DNA of 51,965 nucleotides, taken from the NCBI GenBank assembly GCA_012026935.1, contig VEPI01000172.1, positions 1 through 51,965 on the forward strand, read 5' to 3'. This document shows positions 28,580 to 34,698 of this stretch, piece by piece. Positions within the stretch are counted from its first letter, which is position 1, and every line of letters starts with the position of its first letter. The stretch is from Melioribacter sp. (GTDB lineage: Bacteria > Bacteroidota > Ignavibacteria > Ignavibacteriales > Melioribacteraceae). A model generated the notes under the pieces. The model had not been told where the DNA came from and did no database searches. It worked only from the letters and a program-made list of their open reading frames with translations. Position numbers and translations under genes: made by a program.

Positions 28580-29608
28580 ATGAACTTACAAGAAATGATT
28601 TCAAAATATGACGTCCATAATCAATTCAAAGTTTTAACTGATTCTTACGAACAGGTGGAATACGCATGGAACAATAAATTTAGTGTATCATCCGTTAAAA
28701 CATCAAAAATCAAAAATATTATTCTAACCGGACTTGGCGGATCAGCTATCGGTGGCGATCTTTTACAAAATTATCTTCGCACGGAATTGAAATATCCATA
28801 CACTGTAAACAGAAATTACGAATTGCCCCCATATGCAAATGAAAATACTTTGGTAATTGCATCTTCTTACTCAGGCAATACGGAAGAAACTATTTCAGCA
28901 TTAAATCAAGCAATTAAAAAGAAATGCCAAATTGTTTGTATTTCCACCGGCGGTAAGATTGAAGAGATCGCTATGAAAAAGAAGATCCCGTTTGCAAAAC
29001 TTTTGAAAGGATATCAGCCGCGCTTCGCTCTCTGGATAAATTTTTTTACATTGCTTAAAATTGTCCATTCATTGAAATTAGTCCCCAGTCAAACAAAAAA
29101 CGTTAAACAAGTAATTGATTTATTAAAAAGAAAAGGGTTAGAATATTCTAAAGAAACTAATGCTGCATTGAATTTAGCTGAACAGATGCTTGGTTTTATT
29201 CCGTTGATTTATGCAGTTAGCGATTATACGTCAGTTGTTGGGACAAGAATAAAAGGACAGTTTAATGAGAATGCAAAACATCATGCATTCTTTGGATATT
29301 TGCCTGAACTTGATCACAATGAAATATTAGGATGGGAAGGATATAAATCTACAATGAATTTAAAATTGATCAATATTCTTGATGAAGGTTATCATCCTCA
29401 AGTTAAGAAACGTTATGATCTAACTTCCGAAATGGTAAAAAAAGCCGGAGCGGATGTAATTAATCTTTCCAGTAGCGAAGCAAACGCTAAATTAAGATTA
29501 GTAGATTTAATTTACTTAGGAGATTGGGCAACTTTTTATCACGCTGTATTACGCGCTTTTGATCCGACGAGTATTGATAGTATAAATTATTTAAAGGCTC
29601 ATCTTTGA
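28580..29608 (+). CDS. bifunctional phosphoglucose/phosphomannose isomerase
   Basis: Interconverts glucose-6-P or mannose-6-P with fructose-6-P. The SIS-domain protein shows GLGGSAIGGDLLQNYL, ASSYSGNTEETISA and GGKIEEIA, and ends with GDWATFYHAVLRAFDPTSID, which resembles the C-terminal block of archaeal and bacterial PGI/PMI enzymes. I take ATG 28580 (342 aa) because GAGGA at 28570-28574 sits 5 bases before it; TTG 28565 is a weaker alternative. It overlaps the next gene in a TTGA tetranucleotide. Confidence 0.88.
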   Translation: MNLQEMISKYDVHNQFKVLTDSYEQVEYAWNNKFSVSSVKTSKIKNIILTGLGGSAIGGDLLQNYLRTELKYPYTVNRNYELPPYANENTLVIASSYSGNTEETISALNQAIKKKCQIVCISTGGKIEEIAMKKKIPFAKLLKGYQPRFALWINFFTLLKIVHSLKLVPSQTKNVKQVIDLLKRKGLEYSKETNAALNLAEQMLGFIPLIYAVSDYTSVVGTRIKGQFNENAKHHAFFGYLPELDHNEILGWEGYKSTMNLKLINILDEGYHPQVKKRYDLTSEMVKKAGADVINLSSSEANAKLRLVDLIYLGDWATFYHAVLRAFDPTSIDSINYLKAHL

Positions 29609-32409
29609 TAAAAAATTGGCGGATATATTTGCTCATATTTTTTTTGGTTCCTCAAATTATTTCCGCCCAATTTTACTTCTTTGGACGTAACAAAGTTCAA
29701 TACGAAAAATTTAATTGGAAAGTTCTTAAGACCGAGCATTTCAATATTTACTATTATGATGATTTTACAGAAATAGCAGAGATCGGTGCTAAGTTTGCAG
29801 AAGAAGCATTCGAGTCTCATAAAGTAAGATTCAATCATTATGTAACAAATAAAATTCCTCTAATTTTTTATAACACCCATACACATTTTCAGCAGACAAA
29901 TATTTCTCCCGGATTTATCCCCGAAGGTATCGGCGGTTTCTTTGAATTTATGAAAGGAAGAGTTGTAATTCCTTATTTGGGAAATCTTGCGCAATTCAAA
30001 CACGTTATCAGACATGAATTGGTTCATGTATTCATGACAAATAAAATTTATAATGAGTTGAATGATCACCGAATTAATACTGAAAAAATGCCGCCGCTTT
30101 GGTTTATAGAAGGTTTGGCAGAATATTGGTCATCCGATTGGGATACGCAATCAGAAATGGTGATGCGTGATGCAGTTCTTAACGGAAATTTTATTCCTCT
30201 TGTTGATTTGGAATATCTAGCTGGATATTTGATGTATAAAGAAGGACAAAAATTTTTAGAATTTGTTAGCAAGAATTACGGTGAAGATAAAATTCTTTCA
30301 ATATTAGAAAATTTCTGGAGGTTCAATAAATTTACTGATCTATTAGAATTTGTTACAGGAGAAAAAATAAATGATCTTGATAATAAATGGACATACGACT
30401 TAAGACAAAAATATTTTCCGCTTTACAAAGAAAATTACCCGCATTTCATCCAAGCAAAAAAAATCACTAATGCCGGTTTTAACTTTGCGCCAAGATTTTA
30501 TCAGAACGGCGGAAAGAAAGAAATTTATTTTATCGGTAACCATAACGGTTATACTTCCGTCATGAAAATGGATTACAAACCCGATAGTTCAGATTATGCC
30601 GGCTCTGAAGTTTTGATTGAAGGCGAGCGTGATGCAATTTTTGAAGCATTTCATTTACTCGAAAATACTTTTTCTGTTTCATCAAACGGATTACTTGCTT
30701 TTGTTACTAGAAGTAAAGCCACGGACGTTTTGCACGTTTATTCCATTAAAGAAGAAGAAGTTATTAATACTCTGCAGTTTGACGGACTGATTAGAATAAA
30801 GGCTCCAAGCTACTCTACAGATGGTAATCAAATTGTTTTTACCGCAACAGATACTAAAGGTTTTGGTGACTTGTTTATTTATGATCTAAATACAAAACAA
30901 CTTACTCGTTTAACTAATGATTATTATGAAGATATTGATCCAACATTTAATAAGGACGGAAGTAAAATAATATTTTCATCTGACCGCACAGACGGACTGT
31001 TTAAGCAGAAGTATAATCTGTTTGAATATGATCTGACAACACATGAAATTTCATACATGACAAATGTTAACGCAAATATTTCCACTCCGCATTTCTCTCC
31101 GGATTTTTCAGAACTTTACTTTACAAGCGATTATGACGGCACATATAATATTTGGAAAATTCCAGTGAACGGGGATAGGGCAAACGGAATGACTCAAGTT
31201 ACAAAGTTCATTACAAGTGTTTATGATTTTTCATTTGTTGATAAGAATACTATGGTTACTTCCGGATTTGAAAATTTTTCTTTTCAGTTCTATTCTCTTG
31301 ATTTGAATTCAACACAAAACGAAAAATACGTTGCATTTAATTTTGAGAATTTAGGCTCTAAATGGATTTCTGAGAGAATTAAACTGGCTGCTGAGTATGA
31401 TCGTCTCAAATATGAAAAAGAATACAATTTAGATTATGCCGTAAGTCAATTAATAACCGATCCTGTTTACGGAACACGGGGCGGTGCGTTATTAAGTTTA
31501 AGCGATCTTTTGGGCGATGAACAATATGTATTTTATATTTCCAATACTGCTGAAGTACAAAGTGAAATTCTGAAAAATTTTAATATATCTTTGGCGCGTG
31601 TGAGTTTGAAAGACAGAACAAATTACGGATTTGGAGTTTTCAATTATTCCGGAAGACGTTACGATATAAGAGAATCAGACGAATATTTTTATGAAAGGGT
31701 TTTCGGCGGCTATATTTCTCTTATTTATCCGTTCTCCTCATTTCAACGTCTCGAAGCTGAAATGGACATAGCAAATTCAGATAAAGAATTATCCGGAAGT
31801 TTCATTACAAGAAAATCTCTTTTGGTTACTAACACAATCTCTTTTGTTCATGACAATTCTATTTGGGTTGTTACAGGTCCAGTTGATGGTTCACGATTTA
31901 GATTATTACTCGGTTACACAAGCGATGTGAAATACAGTAACGTAAACTACTATTCCCTTATAGCAGATTACAGAAAGTATTTCCGTTTAGGCCTAAGAAG
32001 CAGTTTAGCTACAAGAGCCGCAATTTTTATTAACGACGGGAAAGAAGCTAGAAGGTATTTCGCGGGCGGAAGCTGGGATTTACGCGGTTGGGATCGTTGG
32101 TCTATACGCGGCGAGAAAATGTGGTTATCATCAATCGAATTAAGATTTCCTCTTGTTGATCAATTTACAATCAATTTCCCATTCTTTGGTTTATCATTTT
32201 TCCAGATAAGAGGAGCGGCATTTTTTGATGCGGGAGCTGCATGGGATAAAAATTATAAAGAAACATTAGGAAGCATAGGTGCAGGAATTAGAATAAATAT
32301 ATTCAATGCATTTGCTTTGAGATATGATATTGGTAAAAAAATTGAAAAAGATTTTACTCAATTTCAACCGGGATTATTTTATCAGTTTTTCTTCGGATGG
32401 GATTTTTGA
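29605..32409 (+). CDS. secreted zinc metallopeptidase (MA-like) fused to TolB-like propeller and Omp85-like barrel
   Basis: A 934-aa exported protein in three parts. Residues 1-22 are a signal peptide ending in ISAQ. Residues about 30-280 form a gluzincin-like domain with HELVH (His137, Glu138, His141) and FIEGLAEYW, whose Glu169 fits the third zinc ligand. Residues about 285-600 contain repeated propeller blades such as PTFNKDGSKIIFSSDR and PHFSPDFSELYFTSDYDG. From about 620 to the end lies a beta-rich region ending in FFFGWDF, with GGSWDLRGW near residue 827 resembling the Omp85 RGF/Y loop motif. It is presumably an outer-membrane barrel with a periplasmic or surface peptidase. Start TTG 29605 overlaps the upstream stop. 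No substrate can be named. Confidence 0.8.
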   Translation: MIKNWRIYLLIFFLVPQIISAQFYFFGRNKVQYEKFNWKVLKTEHFNIYYYDDFTEIAEIGAKFAEEAFESHKVRFNHYVTNKIPLIFYNTHTHFQQTNISPGFIPEGIGGFFEFMKGRVVIPYLGNLAQFKHVIRHELVHVFMTNKIYNELNDHRINTEKMPPLWFIEGLAEYWSSDWDTQSEMVMRDAVLNGNFIPLVDLEYLAGYLMYKEGQKFLEFVSKNYGEDKILSILENFWRFNKFTDLLEFVTGEKINDLDNKWTYDLRQKYFPLYKENYPHFIQAKKITNAGFNFAPRFYQNGGKKEIYFIGNHNGYTSVMKMDYKPDSSDYAGSEVLIEGERDAIFEAFHLLENTFSVSSNGLLAFVTRSKATDVLHVYSIKEEEVINTLQFDGLIRIKAPSYSTDGNQIVFTATDTKGFGDLFIYDLNTKQLTRLTNDYYEDIDPTFNKDGSKIIFSSDRTDGLFKQKYNLFEYDLTTHEISYMTNVNANISTPHFSPDFSELYFTSDYDGTYNIWKIPVNGDRANGMTQVTKFITSVYDFSFVDKNTMVTSGFENFSFQFYSLDLNSTQNEKYVAFNFENLGSKWISERIKLAAEYDRLKYEKEYNLDYAVSQLITDPVYGTRGGALLSLSDLLGDEQYVFYISNTAEVQSEILKNFNISLARVSLKDRTNYGFGVFNYSGRRYDIRESDEYFYERVFGGYISLIYPFSSFQRLEAEMDIANSDKELSGSFITRKSLLVTNTISFVHDNSIWVVTGPVDGSRFRLLLGYTSDVKYSNVNYYSLIADYRKYFRLGLRSSLATRAAIFINDGKEARRYFAGGSWDLRGWDRWSIRGEKMWLSSIELRFPLVDQFTINFPFFGLSFFQIRGAAFFDAGAAWDKNYKETLGSIGAGIRINIFNAFALRYDIGKKIEKDFTQFQPGLFYQFFFGWDF

Positions 32410-33557
32410 AAAAGTTATATATCAAATGTAACACAGTAATTATTGCTCTAATTCTTGTTAGCTGCACACAGCCAATAGCTTTCAAAAATATGATCATTGG
32501 CGGTTCGGGATATTTTATGTTCGGAAAAAATCCTGAAAGAAGTTTTTATCAAAATATATCTATTGAGCCGGATATAAAATTAAAATGGAGTGTAGAAACC
32601 AGCGGAAGCCAAACTAATACATCTGTTATTATTTATGATAATGTACTTTTCGTTGGAGATTTATCCGGCAAACTATATGCGTTTGATAGAACTTCAGGTA
32701 AAATGTTCGGTTATGAAAAATATACCGGCTCTCTTTCAGTTGCTCCTATAGTAAGTAATTTAAGAATATTTATTTTGCTTAATCAGTTCAATGAAAAATA
32801 TTCAGTGCTTAAGCTTTTTGATTACATTAATGGAAATATTTTATTGGAATCAAAGTTCTACGGCAGTGTGCAGAATGAAATGTTAAAGCTAAGTGATGGA
32901 ATTGTTGTGCTTACTGATCAAGGTGAAATTATTAAATTTAATTTTGTAGGATCAAAAGAGTGGAATTTAAATACGGAAGTCTCTACAAAAACCTCGCCTG
33001 CATCGAATGGAAATTTAATTCTTTTTGGCAATGAAAAAGGTGAATTGATTGCAATTTCATCTCATACTGGAGAAATAAAATATAGAACAAAAATAAGTAA
33101 TGGTATTGAAGGGGATTTTTCGATAGACGGAAATTATGCGTACTTCGGAGATAATAACGGAAAATTGTTTTGTGTCTTGGTTGGTGATGGTAGAGTTGTA
33201 TGGACAATTGATACCAAAAGTAAAATTCTTTCTACCCCGGTACTAAATAATGAAAATGTATTTGTTGGAAATCTTGCAGGTGAAATATTTTGTATCAATA
33301 AATCATCTGGCAAGGTAGTATGGAAAATTGAGACAGGCGGAATTATAAATACCGCTCCAACTGTATTCAAAAATTATCTTGTTCAACCTGATCTGAACAG
33401 AAAAGTTTTTTTTATTGATACTAACAACGGTGAAATAACCAAAACATATGATTTTGAAAAGAGAGTCAAACTCTCCCCGGTTTATTACGACGGCATTTTA
33501 TATTTAGGTGTTGATAAAGGAATAATCAATGCGTATCAGATCTCAAATAAAGAATAA
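32397..33557 (+). CDS. PQQ-repeat beta-propeller lipoprotein, BamB-like
   Basis: A 386-aa lipoprotein: the signal sequence ends in ILVSC, with Cys23 from ATG 32397 (Cys20 if it starts at TTG 32406, which makes a TTGA overlap with the upstream gene). The mature part has repeated PQQ-like blades, for example VFVGDLSGKLYAFDRTSGK and VFVGNLAGEIFCINKSSGK, each about 40 residues. BamB has this fold and helps BamA insert barrels. The position directly after an Omp85-like gene makes an assembly partner plausible but not shown. It overlaps the next gene by 29 bases. Confidence 0.78.
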   Translation: MGFLKKLYIKCNTVIIALILVSCTQPIAFKNMIIGGSGYFMFGKNPERSFYQNISIEPDIKLKWSVETSGSQTNTSVIIYDNVLFVGDLSGKLYAFDRTSGKMFGYEKYTGSLSVAPIVSNLRIFILLNQFNEKYSVLKLFDYINGNILLESKFYGSVQNEMLKLSDGIVVLTDQGEIIKFNFVGSKEWNLNTEVSTKTSPASNGNLILFGNEKGELIAISSHTGEIKYRTKISNGIEGDFSIDGNYAYFGDNNGKLFCVLVGDGRVVWTIDTKSKILSTPVLNNENVFVGNLAGEIFCINKSSGKVVWKIETGGIINTAPTVFKNYLVQPDLNRKVFFIDTNNGEITKTYDFEKRVKLSPVYYDGILYLGVDKGIINAYQISNKE

Positions 33558-34134
33558 TAATTTTATTATAAAACTGATTACTGTTTTTTTAATCTCTTTT
33601 GCGAGCAGCATTGCTCAAGATTGCAAAAGCAAGGTCGAAATTACTGCTAATAATTTAGGCGCCAACATTTATATTGATTCATTATTTATTGCGAAAGGCA
33701 AAACTGAGATTAGTCTTTCTAAAGGAAACCATTTATTATTTATTAAAAATCCCTCCTTGATGTGGGGTAAGAAAAATATTTATGATACTCTTAGAATTGA
33801 AGAATGTGATAAAAACTATAAGTTCAATTATGATTTGAAAGGGGAAGAGAATTCTTTAATCCAACCAAATATTTATGAGTACATTAATAAAAACAAGGCA
33901 GAAAGTTTCTTCGGCTCCGGTACATTTAAAATTTTGATCGGAAGTGCCGCGGTTCTTGGCGGAGTTGCCGCATATTTCAAGATCAAAGCCGATAAAAAAT
34001 ATGATGATTATCTTCAAACAAAAAATCATTCCATGCTTGATGAAGTTGATCGTCTTGATCTATACAGCGGAGTAGCATTCGGATTGCTGCAAATAAATTT
34101 CGGCTATTTGATTTATAAATTTCTCACCGATTAA
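33529..34134 (+). CDS. small secreted/membrane protein with PEGA-like segment
   Basis: A 201-aa protein with an N-terminal signal peptide (about 1-29, ending in SIAQ). A PEGA-like beta segment follows: VEITANNLGANIYIDSLFI and KGNHLLFIKNPS. A second hydrophobic stretch (FFGSGTFKILIGSAAVLGGVA, cut here for length) spans about 125-146, and a final one lies near the C-terminus. It starts inside the last 29 bases of the lipoprotein gene, so the two are probably translated together. Function unknown; an accessory to the adjacent envelope proteins is an inference. Confidence 0.62.
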   Translation: MRIRSQIKNNNFIIKLITVFLISFASSIAQDCKSKVEITANNLGANIYIDSLFIAKGKTEISLSKGNHLLFIKNPSLMWGKKNIYDTLRIEECDKNYKFNYDLKGEENSLIQPNIYEYINKNKAESFFGSGTFKILIGSAAVLGGVAAYFKIKADKKYDDYLQTKNHSMLDEVDRLDLYSGVAFGLLQINFGYLIYKFLTD

Positions 34135-34145
34135 ATTTTTGCAAA

Positions 34146-34163
34146 GACGCCATATATGGCATC
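34146..34163. repeat. Degenerate REP-like palindrome upstream of the RAYT gene
   Basis: An 18-base near-palindrome, GACGCCATATATGGCATC, with one mismatched pair (34148 with 34161) and a perfect 12-base core at 34149-34160. Its left side shares AGACGCC with the perfect palindrome inside the transposase gene, and its right side (GGCATCAC) is a decayed match to GGGCGTCTC. It lies 16 bases before the probable start codon. Confidence 0.55.
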
Positions 34164-34179
34164 ACATATAATTATTCAT

Positions 34180-34698
34180 ATGACGAAATACAAAGGATCA
34201 TTTCGTATTGAATCTTCCAGATTGAAAACATGGGATTATTCTAATCCGTGGTGGTATTATATTACGGTAAATACCAAAATCCATGTTTCATACTTTGGCA
34301 GGGTCGAAAAAGGAAAAATGATTTTGAGTGAAATTGGAAAAATTGTAGAGAAATATTGGAAGGAAATTCCAACTCATTTTCCAGGCATTGAGTTGGATTA
34401 TTATATAATTATGCCAAATCACTTGCATGGAATTATTATTATTAATCCCCAAGTAGAGACGCCCGATCGGGCGTCTCTACAAAACCCGCTTCTAAGCCAA
34501 ATTATAAATCAATTCAAAGGTTCTGTAAAACGTTGGGCTAATAAGAACAATTATACGAACTTTTCCTGGCAGCCACGATTTTACGATCGTATAATTCGAA
34601 ATGAAAAGGAACTATTTAACATCAGAAAATATATTGAACAGAACCCGTTAAAATGGGAATTAGAAAAAGATAAACTTGAAAATATATATGAATTATAA
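34180..34698 (+). CDS. REP-associated tyrosine transposase (RAYT, Y1_Tnp family)
   Basis: HUH-family single-strand transposase of 172 aa. The two histidines of the HUH motif are His81 and His83 in MPNHLHGII, and the catalytic tyrosine is most likely Tyr151 in NIRKYIEQNP; QPRFYDRIIRNEKEL precedes it. The start is ATG 34180 (MTKYKGSFRIESSRLK), as typical RAYTs begin; the frame extends to ATG 34156 but that lies inside a palindrome-like sequence. A perfect 28-base palindrome (34453-34480) is translated as VETPDRASLQ, residues 92-101. No inverted-repeat ends or paired transposon are visible, as expected for a single-copy, host-fixed RAYT. Confidence 0.9.
   Translation: MTKYKGSFRIESSRLKTWDYSNPWWYYITVNTKIHVSYFGRVEKGKMILSEIGKIVEKYWKEIPTHFPGIELDYYIIMPNHLHGIIIINPQVETPDRASLQNPLLSQIINQFKGSVKRWANKNNYTNFSWQPRFYDRIIRNEKELFNIRKYIEQNPLKWELEKDKLENIYEL
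34453..34480. repeat. Perfect 28-bp REP-type palindrome inside the RAYT coding sequence
   Basis: The left half GTAGAGACGCCCGA is followed directly by its exact reverse complement TCGGGCGTCTCTAC, with no loop. It lies in frame and encodes VETPDRASLQ between the HUH motif and the tyrosine. Palindromes beginning GTAGAGAC and ending GTCTCTAC are the kind moved by RAYT enzymes, and here the repeat sits in the enzyme's own gene. Confidence 0.88.

Follow-up and report, generated by a model that had tools for sequence, protein, structure and literature searches.

In Escherichia coli the M48 peptidase BepA is a separate, soluble periplasmic protein with TPR repeats that is found at the β-barrel assembly machinery (BAM), where it is thought to trim or destroy faulty or stalled clients. 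The survey of Heinz and Lithgow in 2014 recognized ten Omp85/TpsB subfamilies, among them WD40-Omp85, which has a TolB-like propeller and was likened to a fusion of BamA with BamB, and the “Metallo” subfamily, which carries PF00149; the minor subfamilies were described as conserved at the genus level (PMC4104836; this and the other papers are cited here for the sections consulted). In PlpD the enzyme domain that accompanies the barrel stays in the periplasm (PMC11116518). The BAM of Bacteroidota is unlike that of E. coli, and the presence of BamB in any Bacteroidota is not clear (PMC12578637). The DNA analysed here, called the window throughout, is a stretch of 51,965 nucleotides from Melioribacter sp. 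(assembly GCA_012026935.1, contig VEPI01000172.1, positions 1 to 51,965 of the forward strand). It encodes a protein in which a gluzincin-type peptidase, a TolB-like β-propeller and an Omp85-type barrel are joined in one chain with no detectable POTRA, and the gene is followed directly by one for a BamB-like lipoprotein in a conserved pair.

The barrel gene (29605..32409; all window features given here lie on the forward strand) is an open reading frame (ORF) of 934 aa with a TTG start. Its N-terminus is hydrophobic and, judged by eye from the translation, resembles a cleavable signal (...IISA-QF), so that residues 1 to 21 (29605..29667) are a probable signal peptide. Three Pfam families match above their curated cut-offs: Peptidase_MA_2 (PF13485) at residues 84–263 (E 1.2e-8, 35.4 bits against 32.4), PD40 at 433–467 (E 2.4e-12) and Omp85 (PF01103) at 669–915 (E 1.1e-11, 45.3 bits against 24). 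The same scan gave no match to a patatin domain, and none at E ≤ 0.1 to any POTRA model or to PF00149, which we take to be the calcineurin-like phosphoesterase family; with the same library, POTRA is detected in each of the four further Omp85 proteins that the genome encodes. A preliminary description had read the ORF as a gluzincin-like peptidase, a TolB-like propeller and an Omp85-type barrel fused in one protein, and this reading is upheld, with the gene, the HELVH motif at 137, Glu169 and the RGW motif near 827 all lying where it had placed them. A broken gene was rejected since the frame has no internal stop, a chance fusion or assembly artefact since near full-length matches to the family profile or the protein occur across many assemblies, and a duplicate of BamA since Pfam finds no POTRA.

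The peptidase domain (residues 26–275; 29680..30429) matches Peptidase_MA_2 when that stretch is taken alone (E 9.1e-10). Motif position and the family profile alignment give H137, E138, H141 and E169 as the predicted zinc-site residues, the first three in HELVH (residues 137–141; 30013..30027) and the last, the probable third ligand, as the first residue of EGLAE within FIEGLAEYW (30109..30111). Because fold searches with the whole chain listed propellers only, the N-domain (residues 22–286) was modelled apart, with a predicted local distance difference test score (pLDDT) of 78.8 and a predicted template modelling score (pTM) of 0.79. Among the structures aligned with this model, M9 collagenases come first (8jt1 at the top, Z 15.5, root-mean-square deviation [rmsd] 3.5 over 224 residues), ahead of M1 aminopeptidases and LTA4 hydrolase, and the Foldseek list also includes an M61 peptidase; there was no M48 peptidase among the matches listed by Pfam, Foldseek or structure alignment, an absence compatible with remote kinship. 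The gluzincin-type site and fold proposed earlier are in agreement with the Pfam match and with these alignments to M9 and M1 peptidases (Z 12.3–15.5). When 46 family N-domains picked for an intact site are combined into a profile, its alignment with collagenase 7wss (E 0.011) brings both HExxH and the EGxAEY glutamate into register, and that with 7esi (E 0.0017) the glutamate; both matches are weak. Taken singly, 41 of the 46 match the Peptidase MA profile at E ≤ 0.001.

Conservation of the site was followed in 168 distinct ORFs, 13 of which do not cover it. HExxH and the glutamate are intact in 139 of the remaining 155, one of them with Asp in place of Glu173, a count that is not to be taken as a rate since the set consists of best-scoring hits plus 20 weaker-scoring genomes chosen on purpose; HELVH and Glu169 are thus conserved among homologues, as the reading of a fused peptidase had supposed. 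A tree of 81 rows, obtained by a quick search, midpoint-rooted and leaving out rows under 900 aa, falls into four groups, the short, long, third and lost-site branches, with two rows (L153, L158) placed on the other side from their length labels. The short branch holds the window protein, its kin and five Gemmatimonadota copies (L111, L119, L127, L129, L130), and the third group consists of Gemmatimonadota and some Bacteroidota copies. The tree includes 14 of the 16 lost-site ORFs, and these lie together on one side of a single branch with a support of 100; in the other three groups the site is kept. This distribution favours the view that most of the family is catalytic and that one branch puts the domain to a non-catalytic use, and the 16 ORFs without the site indicate that catalysis is not required everywhere. 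For the window protein, the intact residues lead us to expect that the N-domain would bind zinc and cleave proteins. The lost-site homologues (L059, L060, L183, L185–L195, L197, L198) appear to be pseudo-peptidases.

The TolB-like propeller spans residues about 281–572 (30445..31320), where PD40 matches, and in the whole-chain AlphaFold2 model (mean pLDDT 74.1, pTM 0.59) residues 304–572 align with TolB 1c5k (Z 25.8, rmsd 2.4 over 243 residues). The barrel (residues 603–934; 31411..32406) matches PF01103 on that stretch alone (E 1.2e-12). A profile of 43 family barrels finds the solved structures of BamA (E 1.8e-14) and TamA (E 4e-5), PF01103 matches 31 of the 43 singly, and hhalign pairs the last 138 aligned barrel columns, at a probability of 97.5, with an alignment built from the genome's four other Omp85 barrels. 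Not counting three short strands (753–755, 816–819 and 831–835), the model has 16 long ones between residues 613 and 932, the first barrel strands being weakly modelled. The RGW motif (residues 827–829; 32083..32091) sits between long strands 11 (800–812) and 12 (838–856), the same place as loop 6 of BamA with its RGF/Y. Sequence profile and strand count together bear out the Omp85 barrel that the preliminary description had predicted.

With an Omp85 barrel, a preceding TolB-like propeller and no POTRA, the 934-aa protein fits the WD40-Omp85 subfamily. It differs in its gluzincin domain and BamB-like partner gene, neither of which is named in the sections consulted of PMC4104836, and in its distribution, since conservation at the genus level is stated there and the present family is kept across a class. 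The words “peptidase” and “gluzincin” are absent from the main text of that paper. Like PlpD, the protein carries an N-terminal enzyme fused to an Omp85 barrel, but PlpD has a lipase (patatin) instead of a peptidase, and has POTRA. It shares with the “Metallo” proteins a hydrolase-type domain on an Omp85 barrel, but the PF00149 domain found there is not a gluzincin and is absent here. The likeness to BamA with BamB lies in an Omp85 barrel with an RGF/Y/W loop and an adjacent BamB-like PQQ propeller lipoprotein; unlike BamA, the protein lacks POTRA and has a peptidase and a TolB-like propeller. BepA would be alike, by hypothesis, in being a gluzincin peptidase acting near an Omp85 barrel, but the N-domain here is Peptidase_MA_2 by Pfam, with M9, M1 and M61 peptidases in its fold lists. 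The two cryo-electron microscopy papers of 2025 on Bacteroidota BAM name no such subunit in the sections consulted (PMC12611786, PMC12578637). Propeller-Omp85 proteins without POTRA are known; what appears new is the gluzincin peptidase on such a protein and the pairing with a BamB-like gene, neither of which was brought up by searches of open-licence papers in PMC, so that an account elsewhere is possible.

The layout is common, not rare. At E ≤ 1e-100, 194 of the 197 class genomes have a match to the family profile. At E ≤ 1e-20 so do 161 of 247 genomes drawn from the phylum and, from the phylum to which a Gemmatimonadota relative belongs, 149 of 150, a few of the latter partially. The suggestion in the preliminary description that this layout would be unusual does not hold, as nearly every genome of the class has the family, which is also common in two phyla, and WD40-Omp85 had been named in 2014 (PMC4104836, sections consulted). 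Among 57 kin genomes, 56 have a match at E ≤ 0.001: 41 hold the short type, that of the window protein, along almost the full query, three hold it as fragments, 12 have other matches only, and one has none. At least two matches at E ≤ 1e-100 occur in 129 of the 197 class genomes, a count in which a gene split over contigs counts twice. The genome of the window itself has a second copy, a protein of 1062 aa (L063:2749-5934) whose peptidase match is stronger (E 9.7e-17) and which has no PF01103 match in the Pfam scan. It also encodes a POTRA-bearing BamA (L062:986-3481), two further POTRA-Omp85 proteins and a patatin-POTRA-Omp85 protein of the PlpD type (L066:3335-6040), and in the presence of a separate BamA and these other Omp85 proteins the peptidase-propeller-barrel protein is best viewed as an added Omp85 module. 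In another genome of the phylum (L205), a different ORF of 1119 aa, in which an HEFTH motif occurs together with a match to a propeller, is perhaps another peptidase-propeller layout.

The most informative feature of the locus, and the strongest new fact, is the gene directly behind the barrel gene, which went unmentioned in the preliminary description. This gene (32397..33557) starts 13 bases ahead of the end of the barrel gene and encodes a PQQ-repeat propeller lipoprotein that matches PQQ_2 (E 1.2e-26, 94.2 bits against a cut-off of 27.6) and the NCBIfam equivalog TIGR03300 with 109.3 bits, below the cut-off of 285.2, and is therefore named only BamB-like; one further PQQ_2 locus is present in the genome. 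At its other end, the TTG start of the barrel gene overlaps the TGA stop of an upstream sugar isomerase gene, and these overlaps make it probable that the three genes are translated together. Of 56 distinct short-type ORFs in the class and the named kin, some of them fragments at contig ends, five with under 600 bp downstream were dropped, and a BamB-like gene comes next on the same strand in all the others (51/51). One of these loci (L108), where the genes overlap further than a narrower adjacency range allowed (50/51 there), is counted as present under a wider range.

The same holds in 16 of 16 short-type loci from the phylum's other families, the weakest match having E 1.8e-6, with a partner profile made from 50 neighbours, none of them from those 16 loci. 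These, and 16 loci of the longer paralogue, were hand-chosen from the phylum search rows and are not a random draw. The longer-paralogue loci have a BamB-like neighbour in none of 16 (flanks of about 3 kb), one of them (L239) belonging, through its near relative L158, to the third group and not to the long branch. Upstream, the sugar isomerase gene is kept in 35 of 52 short-type loci. Mere short-range synteny as the explanation of the pair is weakened by these two controls.

The partner carries a lipobox cysteine (LVSC, residue 23; 32463..32465) that is invariant in the 25 sequences aligned, which were taken from 66. A strict lipobox pattern is found in 34 of 50 sequences and a looser one in 63 of 66, the other three having, by eye, a cysteine after a hydrophobic stretch. 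In Bacteroides, two acidic residues after the cysteine mark surface lipoproteins (PMC12578637); none of the 25 aligned partners has two acidic residues in the six positions after the cysteine, and for this reason the BamB-like lipoprotein probably faces the periplasm.

Taking these observations together, the explanation we favour, with a confidence that falls somewhat short of even, is a periplasm-facing peptidase tethered to the outer membrane and paired with a BamB-like lipoprotein in the maturation or quality control of outer membrane proteins. In such an arrangement the C-terminal barrel, with the 16 strands of the model, would be embedded in the outer membrane, and the peptidase and TolB-like propeller would hang on its periplasmic side, the propeller occupying the place that POTRA has in BamA. 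The barrel protein would work with the lipoprotein encoded directly behind it, the propellers could bind clients or partners close to the barrel, and faulty or stalled outer membrane proteins might be trimmed or destroyed by the peptidase in the manner of BepA. We infer the periplasmic location from the analogy with PlpD and from the partner lipoprotein, which seems to be periplasmic, and a membrane-held peptidase beside a barrel and two propellers would fit such a role. The preliminary description had called the protein secreted, which for the enzyme part is doubtful, as it more likely stays in the periplasm.

Several observations weigh against this explanation. Residues 584–626 of the whole-chain model fall under pLDDT 50, so its relative placement of the domains carries no weight. 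For a largely helical model such as that of the N-domain, Z below a caution line of about 13 may reflect only a common arrangement; the alignments with M1 peptidases (Z 12.3–13.7) lie at this line, and those with collagenases have Z 12.9–15.5. Taken singly, 12 of the 43 family barrels have no PF01103 match, and neither do L045, L055, L059 and L063 in a separate scan. With the partner profile, matches to designed propellers (E 1.4e-78) and to some natural PQQ proteins surpass the best one to BamB (E 1.5e-44), a preference that is a further reason to keep to the name BamB-like. The short type is not universal, occurring in 44 of the 57 kin genomes with its three fragments included. A BamB-like neighbour is lacking in the longer paralogues and in all 29 Gemmatimonadota loci (flanks of about 1.5 kb), short-branch copies included, so only part of the family has this partner; at lost-site loci, where flanks are partly short, the partner profile likewise found none. 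The ptsI and PEGA-like genes nearby are often retained as well, and part of the gene order may thus be inherited for other reasons. The acidic-residue rule derives from Bacteroides and may fail in the Melioribacter group. Finally, the loss of the site in 16 of 155 homologous ORFs suggests that part of the function is independent of catalysis.

This last point is the ground for the alternative that survives best, which is possible but which we consider doubtful: that the protein is chiefly an insertase or conduit, a barrel without POTRA whose peptidase-like domain serves as a module for binding or structure, with the propeller and the BamB-like protein standing in for BAM accessory parts. The 16 homologues that keep the architecture without HExxH and glutamate, 14 of them in one branch, are in its favour, as is the view of WD40-Omp85 as reminiscent of a BamA-BamB fusion (PMC4104836). 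However, 139 of 155 distinct ORFs have the complete site, as do the three other large branches of the tree, which speaks for selection on catalysis in these, and the genome also has its POTRA-bearing BamA.

A barrel that exports the peptidase and propeller to the cell surface, giving a surface protease for nutrition or defence as was first proposed for PlpD, is unlikely, even though the nearest solved peptidases are collagenases, which are secreted enzymes. Omp85/TpsB barrels are able to translocate proteins, a possibility raised for enzyme-bearing Omp85 proteins by Heinz and Lithgow (PMC4104836), but the enzyme domain of PlpD was found in the periplasm (PMC11116518), and export of a folded propeller, about 290 residues long and placed immediately ahead of the barrel, would be difficult. 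The acidic surface-export mark is also absent from all 25 aligned partner lipoproteins, and retention in 194 of 197 class genomes suits a housekeeping role. Equally improbable is a peptidase devoted to one specific target, an outer membrane or surface precursor or its own chain, instead of general quality control: the 129 of 197 class genomes with at least two matches, and a two-gene unit in the short type only, would fit separate clients, but apart from the BamB-like and PEGA-like genes no conserved neighbour of the short type stood out as a possible substrate gene, and substrates can be encoded elsewhere.

The surroundings of the pair offer some further observations. Behind the BamB-like gene lies a gene for a small protein (33529..34134) with a weak PEGA match (15.6 bits against a cut-off of 20.8), and such a gene is found at this place in many relatives; in nine of the 16 loci of other families a gene of about 280 aa is situated there (L209, for example). 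An ORF at 34156..34695 matches Y1_Tnp (E 1.5e-6), with the model for REP-associated tyrosine transposases below its cut-off, and contains a perfect inverted repeat of 14 nt without spacer at 34453–34480. In a relative of 97% identity (L036) the PEGA-like and polA ORFs nearly touch, which suggests that the Y1_Tnp ORF may be a recent insertion. In 13 of the 16 longer-paralogue loci (L225–L240) the paralogue adjoins a gene that we read, with no search made, as RNase R-like, and at 11 of the 16 lost-site loci there is an opposite-strand gene that groups with a 226-aa ORF of L059.

As a wider picture, which we hold to be no better than tentative, Ignavibacteria and other lineages of the Bacteroidota phylum may possess a stand-alone assembly and quality-control machine in which peptidase, propeller and BamA-type barrel, whose jobs are separate in E. 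coli, are joined in a single chain paired with a BamB-like lipoprotein, the peptidase having become a non-catalytic module in another branch of the family. The branch that has lost the site offers a natural comparison of catalytic and structural roles. A BamB-like gene tightly paired with one subtype of a near-universal family is a concrete candidate for the question of BamB in Bacteroidota, and the conserved pair hints at an undescribed unit of outer membrane assembly or quality control.

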